Shown here one piece after another: positions 18,770-64,000 of a DNA stretch of 64,000 bases. This stretch comes from Rhabdophis nuchalis (taxonomy: Eukaryota > Chordata > Lepidosauria > Squamata > Natricidae), in assembly GCA_039707465.1 (NCBI GenBank), contig CM077643.1:248191919-248255918 (forward strand). Reading direction: 5' to 3'. The translations under genes were made by a program, and so were the position numbers. Numbering within the stretch: the first letter of the stretch is position 1; each line of letters begins with the position of its first letter. Below the pieces are notes generated by a model, which ran no database searches, had not been told where the DNA came from, and was given only the letters and a program-made list of their open reading frames with translations.

Positions 18770-21700
18770 TAATAAATAATAAATAATAATAAAACTGAAT
18801 TTATTAACCGCTCCCTCTCCCCACAGGGACTCGGGGCGGTGCACAGGGAGAATAAAAACCATAAATATACAAAAATACATACAATTTAAAACAGATTAAA
18901 CAAACACCTGTGCTAAAATCCCATTAACTAAAAATCCCCACTCAATATAAATAAACAATTAAAAAACCCATAGAGAGAGAGACTACCCTAGGCCGGCCAG
19001 GCGGAAAAGATGTGTCTTTAGTTTCAGGCGGAAGGAGCGGAGGTCCGTGGTCGTTCTAATATCGGGGGGAAGGTCGTTCCAGAGGGCCGGGCCCGCCACA
19101 GAGAGAGCCCTTCCCCTGGGCGTCGCCCGCTGACAAAGTCTAGTGGACGGCACCCGGAGAAGTCCCTCTCTGTGGGAGCGAATCGGCCGTGAGGATGTGT
19201 GAGGCAGGATCCGATCCCGCAGGTAGCTAGGTCCCGAGCCATGGAGCGCTTTAAAGATGATAACCAGCACCTTGAAGCGCACCCGGAAGACGACAGGCAG
19301 CCAGTGCAGCTCGCGCAAGAGCGGTGTTACATGGGTAAACCTAGTGGTTCCCATAATTGCTCGCGCGGCTGCATTCTGAACTAACTGAAGCCTCCGGGTG
19401 CACCTCAAGGGGAGCCCCATGTAGAGGGAGTTGCAGTAGTCCAGTCGGGATGTCACGAGGGCATGAGTGACTGTGCGAAGGGCGTCCCGATCCAATAGGG
19501 GGCGCAATTGGCGAACCAGGCGAACCTGGTAAAACGCCCTCCTGGCCACGGCTGTCACTTGCTCTTCCATAGACAGCCGGGTATCCAGGAGGACTCCCAA
19601 ATTGCGCGCCCCATCCACAGGGGCAAGATGTTCGCCCCCTATGGCCAGCGTTGGAGAAAGCTGGTTGAATCGGGCAGCCGGAAACCACAGCCACTCGGTC
19701 TTGGTCGGGTTGAGCCTGAGTCCGTTACTTCCCATCCAGATCCGCACGGCTTCCAGGCACTGGCACATCACCGCTACGGCATCGTTGGGGTGGTTTGGGG
19801 TAGATATATACAGCTGAGTGTCATCAGCGTAGAGATGGTACTCTACCCCAAAACCACGGATGATCTCACCCAGCGGCTTCATGTATGCATTAAACAAGAG
19901 AGGCGAGAGGACCGACCCCTGAGGCACCCCACATGTGAGGGGTCTCGGGGTCGACCTCTGCTCTCCTGCCAACACAAATTGCGATCGGCCAGAGAGGTAG
20001 GAGGAGAACCACCGTAAAACGGTGCCTCCCACCCCCAACCCCCCCAGCCGATGCAATAGGATACCATGGTCGATGGTATCGAAAGCCGCCGAGAGGTCTA
20101 ATAGGACCAGGATGGAGGAACAACCCCCATCCCTGGCCCTCCAGAGATCATCCACCAACGCGACCAATGCCGTCTCGGTGCTATGCCCGGGCCGAAAGCC
20201 GGACTGGCGCGGATCTAGATAATCAACTTCCTCCAGGTGACGGGGAAACTGTTGTGCCACCACACTCTCGACAACCTTCGCCAGAAAGGGAAGGTTGGAG
20301 ACGGGACGATAGTTGGTTAAAAGAGCTGGGTCCAAAGAGGGCTTCTTAAGGAGGGGCCTCACCATAGCCTCTTTTAGGGAAGCAGGCAAGGAGCCCTCAC
20401 TCAAGGATGCGTTGACAACCTCTTGGAGCCAGCCTCGTGTCACCTCCCAGGATGCCAGTACAAGCCAGGAGGGACACGGGTCCAATAAACATGTGGTGGC
20501 TCGCAGTCGTCCACGTAACCTGTCCATATCCTCGGAAGCAACGGAGTCAAATTCCTCCCAAACAAGATCGGCCTCGTGGCATCCCACTGGGCCACGAATG
20601 GGGGCTAGCTCGTTCCGTATCTGAGCGGTTTTGTCCTGCAGAAAAGTCACAAATTCCTCTGCTCTACCCTGTAGCGGGGCTTCCCGCACCCTCTGTTGCA
20701 GGAGGGAACGGGTCACCCTAAACAGGGCGGCAGGGCGGTTTTCTGCGGATGCTATGAGAGTGGCGCAATGATGACGTTTGGCCACTCTCAGCGCCACAAT
20801 GTAAGTCCGTAAATGGGCTCTTACCTGTGTCCGGTCAGATTCGGAGCGAGTAGCCCTCCATCTTCCCTCTAGGCATCTCTTGCGGCGTTTCATCGCCCTC
20901 AGCTCCTCGGTAAACCAAGGAGCCGGGGCAGCTCGGCGCCGCAAGAGAGGCCGCAAGGGCGCGACCCGATCCAAGGCTCCCGCGGCCGCAGTATTCCATG
21001 CGGCCACGAGGTCCTCCATCGGGGCGCGGGTCAGGGGTACAGGAAGTGGCCCAAGCGCCGTCTGGAACCCAACAGGGTCCATCAGGCGCCTGGGGCGAAA
21101 CCAGATAGGAAGTTCTGGTTCCGCCTCCCCGCAACGGGGAGTAGCGGTCGGAAGGTCGAGTCGGAGAAGTGAGTGGTCTGACCATGACAAGGGTGTGATG
21201 ACTATATCCCCTATACCCAGATCACTCTTCCATTGGCCCGAGACAAAGATGAGATCCGGCGTATGTCCACCCTCGTGGGTGGGGCCTTGAATTAGTTGGG
21301 TCAGGTCCATGGCCGTCATGGAGGCCATGAACTCCCGAGCTGCCTCGGATGATTCGCCCAACGATGGCAGATTAAAGTCCCCCATGACTACAAGTCTGGG
21401 GGTCTCAACTGCCACCGTAGCGATCACCTCCAGGAGCTCGGGCAGGGCTGCTGCTACATAGCGGGGAGCCAGGTATACAACCAGCAAGCCCAACTGCCTC
21501 CCTAGGCCCCACTTCACGCAGAGGGACTCACAACCGGTAGTCTGAGGCACAATGGTCTCTCTCGGCTCAAGGCCTTCCTTGATAATGACCGCTACCCCAC
21601 CGCCCCTGCCTAGGGCCCGCGGCTGATGAAAAGCGCAGTAACCTGGTGGGCACATTTCGACGAGGGGAAGTCCTCCCTCGTGGCCCAACCAGGTCTCTGC

Positions 21701-22134
21701 AATTCCTACCAGGTCCGGCTCCCCCTCTGACACAAGGTCATGGACGAGGGGGGCTTTTTTGACCACGGACCTGGCGTTGCAAAACATCAGCCGCAGGCCC
21801 TGGCTCTGTATCCCCTGACCACCTAGCCTACGGGGGTTGTGGCACCCGACCGTTTGTAACCAACGGCCACGTGCCACCAACCGGGAGGATGGAACTTGTC
21901 TCCCCTCGGCCCTGCCCCTCCCCACGACCGTCTGGATTGATATGCCCTCCGGCGGACCAATTCGTAATTCCCCCCTCATATCGGATCCTTCCGTCTCCTC
22001 CCGTCGGCTACTGGTCCGGCCCCTTCTTTCATGTTGTTCTGTCTCTATCTGTCTATGCCCACCCCCCTCCCTGGGACCCCCTAAAATAACCAATAATTTA
22101 CCAATTAAAAATCCCCTAAGGCCGCGCTTCGCCC
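18770..22134 (-). mobile_element. L2-B LINE, nearly full length, nested in L2-A
   Basis: This non-LTR retrotransposon of the L2 clade sits on the minus strand. Its 3' tail is the AATA-type repeat at 18770-18795, followed upstream by the conserved 3' UTR (18796-18982). Its 5' end by homology is GGGCGAAGCG (reverse complement of 22125-22134); L2-A shows the same sequence at 23063-23072. It interrupts L2-A between 18769 and 22135 with only a few target bases lost and no clear long duplication. It is much less damaged than L2-A, so it is the younger insertion. GC content is far above the surrounding DNA. Confidence 0.92.
18983..22093 (-). CDS. L2-clade LINE ORF2: endonuclease plus reverse transcriptase
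   Basis: A single uninterrupted frame of 1036 codons. The product would nick genomic DNA and reverse-transcribe the element RNA at the nick (target-primed reverse transcription). The APE-type endonuclease covers residues about 100-315: FCNARS (104-109), AETW (132-135), MGDFN (237-241) and SDH (305-307). The linker is basic. The reverse transcriptase covers about 560-850: [50 protein letters not shown] and YADD (755-758). The C-terminal domain contains LQLVQNAAAR and FRVRFKVL. Codon 1 as given is TTG at 22091-22093; the first ATG is codon 39 (21977-21979), and the frame stays open to the 5' end of the element, so the true start is uncertain and slight 5' truncation is possible. All catalytic boxes seen by eye are intact, so it may encode active enzyme; activity is inferred. 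Confidence 0.93.
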   Translation of the reverse strand: MVILGGPREGGGHRQIETEQHERRGRTSSRREETEGSDMRGELRIGPPEGISIQTVVGRGRAEGRQVPSSRLVARGRWLQTVGCHNPRRLGGQGIQSQGLRLMFCNARSVVKKAPLVHDLVSEGEPDLVGIAETWLGHEGGLPLVEMCPPGYCAFHQPRALGRGGGVAVIIKEGLEPRETIVPQTTGCESLCVKWGLGRQLGLLVVYLAPRYVAAALPELLEVIATVAVETPRLVVMGDFNLPSLGESSEAAREFMASMTAMDLTQLIQGPTHEGGHTPDLIFVSGQWKSDLGIGDIVITPLSWSDHSLLRLDLPTATPRCGEAEPELPIWFRPRRLMDPVGFQTALGPLPVPLTRAPMEDLVAAWNTAAAGALDRVAPLRPLLRRRAAPAPWFTEELRAMKRRKRCLEGRWRATRSESDRTQVRAHLRTYIVALRVAKRHHCATLIASAENRPAALFRVTRSLLQQRVREAPLQGRAEEFVTFLQDKTAQIRNELAPIRGPVGCHEADLVWEEFDSVASEDMDRLRGRLRATTCLLDPCPSWLVLASWEVTRGWLQEVVNASLSEGSLPASLKEAMVRPLLKKPSLDPALLTNYRPVSNLPFLAKVVESVVAQQFPRHLEEVDYLDPRQSGFRPGHSTETALVALVDDLWRARDGGCSSILVLLDLSAAFDTIDHGILLHRLGGLGVGGTVLRWFSSYLSGRSQFVLAGEQRSTPRPLTCGVPQGSVLSPLLFNAYMKPLGEIIRGFGVEYHLYADDTQLYISTPNHPNDAVAVMCQCLEAVRIWMGSNGLRLNPTKTEWLWFPAARFNQLSPTLAIGGEHLAPVDGARNLGVLLDTRLSMEEQVTAVARRAFYQVRLVRQLRPLLDRDALRTVTHALVTSRLDYCNSLYMGLPLRCTRRLQLVQNAAARAIMGTTRFTHVTPLLRELHWLPVVFRVRFKVLVIIFKALHGSGPSYLRDRILPHTSSRPIRSHREGLLRVPSTRLCQRATPRGRALSVAGPALWNDLPPDIRTTTDLRSFRLKLKTHLFRLAGLG

Positions 22135-23072
22135 TGACAGGGGTGTGATGGCTAAATCCCCTATTCCCAGATCATGACTCCACTGTCCCGAGACGAAGAT
22201 GAGATCCAGGGTGTGTCCACCCTCGTGGATAGGGCCTAAAACTACCTAGGTCAGGCCCATGGCTGTCATGGAAGCCATGAACTCCCGAGCTGCACCAGAG
22301 GTTTCGCCTACCGACGGCAGGTTGAAGTCCCCCATGACTAACAGTCTGGGGGTCTCAACCGCCGCCTCGGCTATCACCTCTAGGAGCTCGGGCAGGGCTG
22401 TTGTTGCATAGCGAGGAGCCAGGTATACAACTAACACGCCCAACTGCCTCCCTAAGCCCCACTTCATGAGGAGGGACTCACACCCGGTCGTCTGAGGGAT
22501 CGTGGTCTCCTTCGGCTCAATACCTTCCCTAACCATAATCGCCACCCCCCCACCCCTCCCCAGGGCCCTAGGCTGATGGAAGGCTCGGTAGCCTGGTGGG
22601 TACATTTCCACGAGGGGTAGTCCTTCCTCGTGGCCCAACCAGGTTTCCGTGATACCCACCAGGTCCGGGTCCCCCTCTGACACAAGGTCATGGATGAGGG
22701 GGGCTTTTTGTATCACGGACCTGGCATTGGATAGCATCAGCCTAGGGCCCCAGGTCTGTGGTTCTTGCCCACCTAGTCTGCGATGGGAGCATGGGAGGTC
22801 GGAGCGCGTGACCGCCTGTAACCAGCGGCCATGGTCCTCCAACCGATGTCCATCCCATCTCCCACCACCCCTGCCCCTCCCCAAGACCGAATTGATGGAG
22901 AATACCTCAGTGGAAGTGACCCCCCCTTCTCCCTCCTCCGTTTCTCTACTTCCTCCGGCCGGCCTTATAATTTGGCGTCCCCCCATCTGACTATCCCCTC
23001 CCTCCTCCCTGGAACCCCCTAAAAGCCGAATTAAAAAATTAAAAAGGAACCCCCTGAGTTTGCGCTTCGCCC
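22135..23072 (-). mobile_element. L2-A LINE, 5' portion
   Basis: This continues L2-A beyond the nested L2-B. The plus strand resumes at 'tgacaggggtgtgatggcta', the counterpart of 21185-21204 in L2-B, exactly where the 3' portion at 18769 broke off. The 5' end is set at 23072 by matching the L2-B terminus. GC-rich sequence with an open minus-strand frame continues to about 23200, so the true 5' end may lie farther right. Confidence 0.88.
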
Positions 23073-62690: not shown

Positions 62691-62744
62691 TTATTTTAAA
62701 AGTCCCAGATGTCCACAATATATGTATGTATATATGTATGTAAT

Positions 62745-62816
62745 CAGGGATACTGGTTAGCTCAAGGCATAGAGAAGCCTGCTTCGAATGCTGGAGAGCA
62801 CCAGTTCAAATCCCTG
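62745..62816 (+). other. 12-bp stem with B-box-like motif
   Basis: CAGGGAT (62745-62751) pairs with ATCCCTG (62810-62816), and ACTGG (62752-62756) pairs with CCAGT (62801-62805), leaving a TCAA bulge. Inside are TTAGCTCAAGGC, loosely A-box-like, and AGTTCAAATCC (62803-62813), one mismatch from the pol III B box. This resembles a tRNA-related promoter region but does not fold as a standard cloverleaf. Identical copies follow in monomers 2 and 3. Confidence 0.6.
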
Positions 62817-62821
62817 TAGGG

Positions 62822-62878
62822 AAGTATGGCCAGCTGACGAGGGCTAAGGAGCCCGAAATGGATCCATCCTGGTCTCTT
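62822..62878 (+). ncRNA. Type I hammerhead ribozyme, copy 1
   Basis: This is a self-cleaving RNA. Core: CUGACGA at 62834-62840 and GAAA at 62855-62858. Stem II: GGGCU/AGCCC (62841-62845 with 62850-62854, AAGG loop), with the canonical G-C at 10.1-11.1. Stem III: AUGG/CCAU (62858-62861 with 62864-62867), short, with a 2-4-nt loop. Cleavage is predicted after C62868 (AUC|C). Stem I: GGCCAG (62828-62833) with CUGGUC (62869-62874), one G-U pair, then an internal loop and a distal AAG/CUU helix (62822-62824 with 62876-62878), as in natural type I ribozymes where loop contacts speed cleavage. All conserved core bases are present. The short stem III may favour paired, dimeric action in multimeric transcripts. 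Confidence 0.9.
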
Positions 62879-63090
62879 AATTAATTATTATTAATCATCC
62901 CTTAAAGAAATTTAACACATATATAAAAAAAAAGACAGCAGCAATTTAATAGGTCTCTGTCTGGATGGTCTCTAGGTTGAGTCGAAGGACAGAGAAGGAT
63001 GACAAGTTTGTCTCCTCCCTTAAATAGGCCTAACAGGAAGCTGTAACAAAATATCCACTTCATCAATAAAGTCCTGTAGAAAGGATGATG

Positions 63091-63441
63091 TAATCAGGGA
63101 TACTGGTTAGCTCAAGGCATAGAGAAGCCTGCTTCGAATGCTGGAGAGCACCAGTTCAAATCCCTGTAAGGAAGTATGGCCAGCTGATGAGGGCTAAGGA
63201 GCCCGAAATGGATCCATCCTGGTCTCTTAATTAATTATTATTAATCATCCCTTAAAGAAATTTAACACATATATATAAAAAAAAGACAGCAGCAATTTAA
63301 TAGGTCTCTGTCTGGATGGTCTCTAGGTTGAGTCGAAGGACAGAGAAGGATGACAAGTTTGTCTCCTCCCTTAAATAGGCCTAACAGGAAGCTGTAACAA
63401 AATATCCACTTCATCAATAAAGTCCTGTAGAAAGGATGATG
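63091..63441 (+). repeat. 351-bp hammerhead satellite monomer 2
   Basis: It is nearly identical to monomer 1 throughout. Differences seen are G to A at 63170 (ccctgtaagg), C to T in the ribozyme core position 7, and a one-base extension plus substitution in the ATATA/A-run segment. The head-to-tail order is the product expected from rolling-circle or unequal-exchange amplification. Confidence 0.93.
63172..63228 (+). ncRNA. Type I hammerhead ribozyme, copy 2
   Basis: The core reads CUGAUGA (63184-63190), the most common form, and GAAA (63205-63208). Stems I, II and III and the distal AAG/CUU helix are identical to copy 1. Predicted cleavage is after C63218, exactly 350 nt from the site in copy 1. 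The only change from copy 1 inside the ribozyme is at N7, the one core position that tolerates any base. Confidence 0.9.
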
Positions 63442-63522
63442 TAATCAGGGATACTGGTTAGCTCAAGGCATAGAGAAGCCTGCTTCGAATGCTGGAGAGC
63501 ACCAGTTCAAATCCCTGTAGGG
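63442..63522 (+). repeat. Hammerhead satellite monomer 3, interrupted
   Basis: The first 81 bp are identical to the start of monomer 1, including the 12-bp stem and B-box-like motif. The unit stops just before its ribozyme where a hAT-like element begins. The rest may resume beyond the window. Confidence 0.9.
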
Positions 63523-64000
63523 CAGGCATGTCCAAAGTCAGGCCCGGGGGCCATTTGCGGCCCGGGGGTTGGTTTAATACGGCCCTCCAACAGCCCTCCC
63601 TGCTCTGTGTAAATGTGGCCCTCCCTTCCTCCCTCTGTCTCTGGGGCTGTGTGGCTGGGAGGGAGGTCGACGGAGGTTACGGATGCCTCCTCCCGCAGTG
63701 GGCGAGGGAGCAGGCGGGGTGAGCACCCAAGGCTACCGTCATCTTAAGCACCACCGAGGCTGTCGCCCGGCAGGGGCGTCAGTCAGGGAAGCCGGTCGCG
63801 CCTCCATCGCTGCACGTTTTGGGGCTGCGAAGCTGGGAGGGAGGTGAACGCGCGGCCCCAGAACGTCCGCTTGGCGCGTTCACCTCCCTCCCAGCCACGC
63901 AGCCCCAGAACGTGCGGCTCCCGCCGCATAAGGTCGCCCGGCAGGGGCGTCAGGCAGGGAAGATGGACATGCGGCCTCAGAACGTAAGCCGTGGTGCCTG
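63523..64000. mobile_element. hAT-like element, GC-rich, partial
   Basis: It begins CAGGCATGTCCAAAGTCAGG inside monomer 3, preceded by ctgtaggg (63515-63522), which would be the left half of an 8-bp duplication. The interior is very GC-rich with a large inverted repeat (arms 63811-63852 and 63875-63916) and a direct repeat of 'cgcccggcaggggcgtcag' at about 63764 and 63934. The right end lies outside the window. The frame at 63489-63722 spans the junction and is not a gene. Confidence 0.6.

Follow-up and report, generated by a model that had tools for sequence, protein, structure and literature searches.

The stretch of DNA analysed here, hereafter the window, is 64,000 nucleotides long, and close to its end lies an array of repeats arranged head to tail on the forward strand (62738-63522), of which two are complete and a third is partial. 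Unit 1 (62738..63087) is 350 bp long and unit 2 (63088..63438) is 351 bp long; they are distinguished by two substitutions and by the length of an A/T run. Element positions, prefixed q, are counted from window position 62741, which is q1. The units have a GC content of 0.40-0.41, and their length varies between 344 and 351 bp across the loci sampled from the rest of the genome. No open reading frame of 120 aa or more was found within them, the one that overlaps their first bases being microsatellite.

A TA/TG-rich microsatellite (62717..62740) precedes the array and forms the left side of the presumed target. At the other end, the first part of unit 3 (63439..63522) is interrupted by an insertion, which we take to be a hAT-like element; its first part occupies 63523..64000, and its ends read CAGGCATGTCCAAAGT... 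and ...GTTTGGACACCACTG. At locus L031 the whole insertion spans positions 1442-2974, the first of which is window position 63523, and is flanked by an 8 bp target-site duplication, CTGTAGGG, found at 63515..63522 of the window and at L031:2975-2982; this presumably fits the nnnTAnnn target of Buster-type hAT elements. The original prediction, made from the window alone, placed tandem repeats at 62741..63522. The tandem repeats are indeed there, but 63522 is merely the point of interruption, as unit 3 resumes behind the hAT-like element, beyond the end of the window, and stops at q323, where it is followed by TATG and then by TA/TG repeats.

Both complete units carry a type I hammerhead motif on the forward strand, at 62828..62874 in unit 1 and 63178..63224 in unit 2. 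Each consists of a CUGANGA core, a stem II of the form GGGCU-AAGG-AGCCC, the GAA trinucleotide, a 3 bp stem III closed by a GAUC loop, and a 6 bp stem I. In unit 1, stem I pairs 62828-62833 with 62869-62874, the core (CUGACGA) lies at 62834-62840, stem II at 62841-62854 and GAA at 62855-62857, and stem III pairs 62858-62860 with 62865-62867; the core of unit 2 reads CUGAUGA. Cleavage is predicted to occur after C62868 and C63218, bases that are 350 nt apart, as had been proposed. A pattern combining the core, the three stems and the cleavage base matched at just these two positions on either strand of the window, and not at all when the window was simulated 60 times with an order-2 Markov model, in agreement with the earlier claim of an intact core and stems in two monomers. 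The distal stem I helix that had also been described is present, but it is a weak AAG/CUU pairing, with 87.1% of cells paired among copies.

An Rfam scan of the window yielded no match reaching a gathering score, which, taken literally, goes against the expectation that a hammerhead model would match above threshold. The best match was to HH9 (29.7 bits against a cut-off of 52; E value 3.5e-5 for 1 kb) and involved the second copy only, whilst two older copies from the same genome reached 33.4 bits with Hammerhead_1, the cut-off of which is 34. Given this result, covariation was tested next, using 40 loci fetched from the 1.92 Gb assembly; as these were the best-scoring matches, they constitute a young and biased sample. 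They contain 172 copies of the hammerhead region, 161 of which fit the alignment pattern and gave 49 distinct, ungapped rows, and the pairing figures are conditional on that selection. Of the 11 copies left out, five are defective at a single base of the core or cleavage triplet, one is disrupted in both the core and stem III and another in stem III only, one lacks most of stem II, one has stem III shortened, and two are chimeras at an inversion junction.

Over the 17 base pairs of the hammerhead structure, 95.0% of the 833 cells are paired, as opposed to 33-52% when the partners are slid. Both sides have changed in 61 cells, compared with a mean of 17.1 in shuffled alignments, none of 500 being as high. 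Two other measures are weak: 8 of the 17 base pairs have changed on both sides, a figure that 22 of the 500 shuffles also reached, and 320 of them had as many further pair types. All four helices join in the covariation, with stem III switching as a pair from AUGGAUCCAU to AUAGAUCUAU. That 95% of cells are still paired, even though pairs have changed on both sides, means that the ribozyme has been under selection.

Folding predictions for the lone motif are less clear-cut, its stability being no greater than that of shuffled sequences. The probability of stem III is 0.01-0.03 and that of stem I in copy 1 around 0.2, and RNAalifold, when unaided, recovers stem II and replaces stems I and III with a different hairpin. 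By comparison, the predicted free energy is -45.6 kcal/mol for the double hammerhead of a dimer and -14.5 kcal/mol for a single hammerhead in a monomer. The optimal dimer fold predicted for copy 2 includes the double hammerhead, whereas that for copy 1 does not include it in full. Treated as a circle, the unit folds somewhat better than shuffled sequences (z -2.2; 1 of 100 as low).

Upstream of the hammerhead is a tRNA-like head (62758..62812, forward strand), repeated in unit 2 and at the start of unit 3. Its first 11 bases, TAGCTCAAGGC (62758-62768), resemble an A box, albeit one that fails the strict pattern, and it ends with a match to the B-box pattern, GTTCAAATC (62804-62812); tRNA models and ARAGORN found no match in this head. 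Use of the head by RNA polymerase III is plausible; polymerase III-like boxes occur in the Sm-alpha repeat of Schistosoma. The unit lacks TTTT, but this was dropped as proof of polymerase III use, being too common in the background (99 of 1,220 windows).

The mapping of copy number and array length, which the original prediction had put forward, revealed a family that is large and recently active. The exact young core, CTGANGAGGGCTAAGGAGCCCGAAATGGATCCATC, occurs 2,301 times in the genome and the exact older core, CTGATGAGAGCTAANNAGCTCGAAATAGATCTATC, 7,569 times, reversed-pattern controls giving none in either case; since these are exact matches, they are lower bounds. Short arrays of units are scattered across many contigs, none with more than six complete units among the 40 best-scoring loci, and no coding sequence lies between successive units in that sample; one array among the places listed shows seven cores. 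Relatives elsewhere were sought with two patterns in viral contigs and one in genome contigs, neither set giving a match, hence all comparisons are made inside one genome. The earlier note had raised the possibility of either a small, non-coding, ribozyme-bearing mobile element or a satellite. With a core conserved among genomic copies, as judged from both the covariation and the exact counts, and with sampled units in short, dispersed arrays that resemble separate insertions, the former is supported, in the shape of a retrozyme, and the latter is not.

Contrary to the suggestion that this might be an undescribed system, the class itself is known, and metazoan non-LTR retrozymes are described as carrying type I hammerheads and giving rise to RNAs of around 170-400 nt (PMC7229834). 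No squamate or reptile retrozyme was recognised in the open-access literature searched, within which the family and the evidence on its insertion look new. The axolotl retrozymes Rtz_331 and Rtz_353 (330 and 350 bp) likewise have a type I hammerhead in short tandem repeats, and hammerhead-bearing Penelope-like elements (PLEs) in the same genome; the weakness of their helix III, the palindrome in its loop and the better cleavage of their dimers are reported in the same source (PMC7229834). The weak helix III, the palindromic tetraloop and the apparent need for a dimer are thus common to both, being predicted features in the present case. The family described here differs in its tRNA-like head, its two fixed 3' ends at microsatellites, its diverging insertion pairs and its 3 bp stem III, as well as in having what is probably an amniote host.

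Sm-alpha, which is SINE-like, and newt satellite 2 are also ribozyme-bearing tandem repeats of a few hundred base pairs. They are likened to the present family by description only, and the arrays found here are short and dispersed; the satellite history of the newt repeat is also covered in PMC7229834. HH9 (RF02275), the best, sub-threshold match of the window, and HH10 are amniote intronic hammerheads, found as single motifs, as opposed to the thousands of copies here, many of them in tandem; the likeness seen here is in the core (PMC3088659, PMC6155905). It has been suggested that the intronic hammerheads derive from a repeat-borne one (PMC3088659), and those of humans and other mammals are described as isolated motifs rather than tandem ones (PMC7229834). 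If the genome is that of an amniote, this young tandem family would be a living example of the repeats thought to be ancestral to the intronic hammerheads.

The ends of the arrays are informative about the manner of insertion. At the 3' side, 35 of the 40 sampled arrays stop at one of two sites, both on the forward strand. Site 1, TTTAACACATATATA (62911..62925; q171-185), accounts for 24 arrays, which end at q173-185, and its motif is retained in older subfamilies; site 2, CCACTTCAT (63055..63063; q315-323), accounts for 10, which end at q323-325. The 35 include the window's own array, listed as ending at q84 through the hAT-like insertion, its true end being q323. The other five stop at q42, q52, q293, q305 and q341, the last of which, at L050, is cut by a sequence starting CAGGGGTCTCCAACCCCC that we presume to be another hAT-like end. 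In 29 of the 40 arrays, at least 15 of the 19 steps in the next 20 bp are TA, CA or GT-type dinucleotides.

The 5' starts, by contrast with these fixed 3' ends, are spread over q1-q330; six are listed at q1, though L053 and L067 visibly have more unit bases upstream. An inverted piece of the element is found at the 5' junction of 14 of the 40 arrays. Its outer end coincides with site 1 or 2 in six of these and lies elsewhere in the other eight, two of which cannot be judged. In L052, L055 and L057 the inverted piece has the same variants as the array it belongs to, which is not so in L039. Among the places listed on contig 1, neighbouring cores on opposite strands less than 1 kb apart diverge rather than converge, in ratios of 11:0 for young cores and 8:1 for older ones. 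Arrays fixed at the 3' end but variable at the 5' end, together with diverging pairs, are as expected from target-primed reverse transcription off both strands.

Many flanks contain a second short repeat, in which a minimal hammerhead overlaps an open frame (e.g. MMTSEILSKRCNNFSMPYTRENPRSQLCQHTYTRENLRKH) and which ends at TA repeats. A pattern search found 25 such pieces in 18 of the 40 loci, and BLAST detected them in 26 of the 40; there are none in the window. From the start codon to the repeat, the distance is 83-91 nt in 11 pieces, 110-119 nt in nine and 129 nt in one, the other four giving no value, and the pieces have two alternative ends within AC-rich sequence against the TA repeats. 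They are read here as pieces of PLEs, from which no joined reverse transcriptase frame was recovered, because the PLE of the green anole has a hammerhead at the start of its frame, an internal start of reverse transcription and AT-rich targets.

One motif of these pieces is present 1,924 times in the genome. The flanks, 78,909 bp in total, contain nine exact copies of it against an expected 0.079, and 11 of the older retrozyme core against an expected 0.31. Of 54 young clusters on contig 1, seven are found less than 1 kb from the PLE motif (shift mean 0.08; none of 3,000 shifts gave as many), and 3 of 14 lie less than 3 kb from an older retrozyme core, an outcome seen in 5 of 5,000 relocations. 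The controls for co-location were the window and genome-wide motif counts, and a common microsatellite preference may explain part of the co-location with PLE pieces. The PLE motifs also diverge in 12 cases and converge in none among the places listed. Of those on contig 1, short PLE pieces often form diverging pairs just 47-80 bp apart, as if both copies had stopped just upstream of the hammerhead.

PLEs have themselves been described as bearing hammerheads in tandem pseudo-LTRs (PMC7761336, PMC11167929), and both the targets and the layout of the ends are alike, which raises the question of whether the 350 bp units are simply the pseudo-LTRs of an autonomous PLE, there being no separate element. 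This is scarcely credible given that the PLE-type pieces in this genome have a different, minimal hammerhead that overlaps an open frame, and that the units are directly adjacent to one another throughout the 40 sampled loci, with nothing coding between them. No PLE with a pseudo-LTR matching the unit was found, nor was any full PLE recovered.

A closer comparison can be made with Poseidon, the PLE of the green anole. In this element the hammerhead is reported to lie where the frame starts and reverse transcription to begin 111-118 nt into the frame, at two adjacent sites; cleavage of AT-rich DNA and the extension of both strands are reported in vitro (PMC11167929). The hammerhead upstream of an internal AC-rich start, the two start sites, the AT-rich targets, the tandem arrangement and the extension from both strands all have counterparts in the present family. 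For 21 of the 25 PLE-type pieces found here, the distance between start codon and end is 83-91 or 110-129 nt, as compared with the anole start at 111-118 nt. PLEs, however, encode a reverse transcriptase and an endonuclease, whilst the unit described here is non-coding and has a hammerhead of its own sequence, with a stem III; hence it is not itself a PLE, but may work with one. Indeed, PLEs have been named as the likely mobilisers of animal retrozymes on the grounds of common features and co-occurrence (PMC7229834, PMC7761336). The scars of insertion seen here, namely the two 3' ends, the microsatellites, the diverging pairs and the pieces in the flanks, resemble those of the PLE-type pieces in the same genome, a resemblance that would allow the link to be tested using a single purified protein.

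A search for the mobiliser among GIY-YIG family proteins (150 of 1,267 candidates scored) identified no PLE endonuclease. It gave one match, at L071, which was rejected as a mobiliser since it looks like a host gene, presumably SLX1-like. The window does encode an endonuclease and reverse transcriptase (Pfam PF03372 and PF00078) in an open frame of 1,062 residues on the minus strand (18983-22171), which we take to be a CR1-like LINE. Together with the contig sizes, this LINE would be in keeping with a squamate genome. Such an element might instead have moved the same kind of retrozyme, PLE pieces lying nearby merely through a shared taste for microsatellites, which alone would co-locate the two; that a complete PLE frame was not recovered is in keeping with this. 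We nevertheless regard a LINE as an unlikely mover, as the PLE-type pieces resemble the retrozymes both in having two alternative ends in AC-rich sequence next to TA repeats and in forming diverging pairs. Additionally, the anole PLE is reported to extend both strands, something that, according to the same source, has not been demonstrated for R2 or human LINE-1 (PMC11167929).

The sequence and covariation of the hammerhead, the copy number, the fixed 3' ends, the microsatellite flanks, the diverging pairs and the co-location with PLE pieces are, in our view, probably best accounted for by a non-autonomous, non-LTR retrozyme that is moved by a PLE through target-primed reverse transcription, often on multimeric RNA. 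Its promoter, its cleavage, the form of its RNA and the enzyme involved would be as follows. An array would be transcribed, perhaps from its tRNA-like head, and the hammerheads would cleave part of the multimeric RNA, the best predicted fold being a double hammerhead formed via the palindrome AUGGAUCCAU. The PLE protein would then take RNA of unit length or multimeric, linear or circular, and cut TA or CA microsatellites, with reverse transcription beginning inside the RNA at either of the two AC-rich sites. Copying would proceed upstream across several units and halt at varied points, leaving short arrays with a fixed 3' end and a variable 5' end, and where both DNA strands acted as primers, the two cDNAs would join head to head.

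Whether the RNA copied is a circle of unit length or a multimer can be addressed from the DNA alone, by means of mixed arrays. With CpG sites masked, the mean difference between units is 1.51 within an array and 3.23 between arrays, with none of 2,000 permutations as low. Of the 19 alleles present in two to eight units, eight occur in a single array only, whereas permutations gave 0.3 on average and 7 at most. Both results fit one source RNA per insertion. However, in L039 and L040 the last, partial unit is without the variant of the full units, and the arrays of L046 and L049 are mixed, which suggests that the template was often a multimer, or that units were exchanged later. Rolling-circle copying of single-unit circles was consequently discarded as a sole route, as the mixed arrays speak against it. 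In L058 (971-3555), units 1 and 5 share variants, as do units 2 and 6, so that the pattern recurs every four units; either a tetrameric template or the duplication of a block could have produced it.

The likeness of units within arrays would also be expected if this were a satellite growing by unequal crossing-over and gene conversion, its hammerhead being a relic or serving to process satellite RNA, a role once proposed for newt satellite 2; the four-unit period of L058 is equally an expected product of block duplication. This nonetheless appears very improbable, in view of the short arrays on many contigs, their fixed 3' and variable 5' ends and their microsatellite flanks, together with the inverted 5' pieces that share the variants of their own arrays in L052, L055 and L057. 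Even so, some arrays may owe part of their units to growth at the level of DNA.

Returning to a retrozyme moved by a PLE, mutants of the anole hammerhead were reported to be without effect on insertion in vitro (PMC11167929), which fits multimeric templates. More tentatively, and with rather less than even confidence, the hammerhead and the AC-rich site downstream of it could be viewed as a module that parasitises the PLE protein by mimicking the order found in the PLE, a hammerhead followed by an internal start. It would be primed from both strands at microsatellites, its templates being mostly multimers that had been cut partly or not at all, with the ribozyme contributing to circle formation no more than to recognition by the PLE protein or release by it.

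The spacing of such modules varies. From the cleavage site to the repeat is 55-60 or 82-98 nt in 23 of the 25 PLE pieces, and 51-57 nt (q179/185) or 195 nt (q323) in the young retrozymes; in the older subfamilies it is 34-37 nt for B, with one at 60 nt, and 39-46 nt for C, D and E. The idea of a fixed distance from hammerhead to start, acting as a ruler, was abandoned because the spacing in subfamilies B and C/D/E departs from that of A. A motif resembling AACACAYA lies no more than 120 nt after the cleavage site in 118 of 126 copies of subfamily A, 9 of 11 of B, and 12 of 16 of C, D and E.
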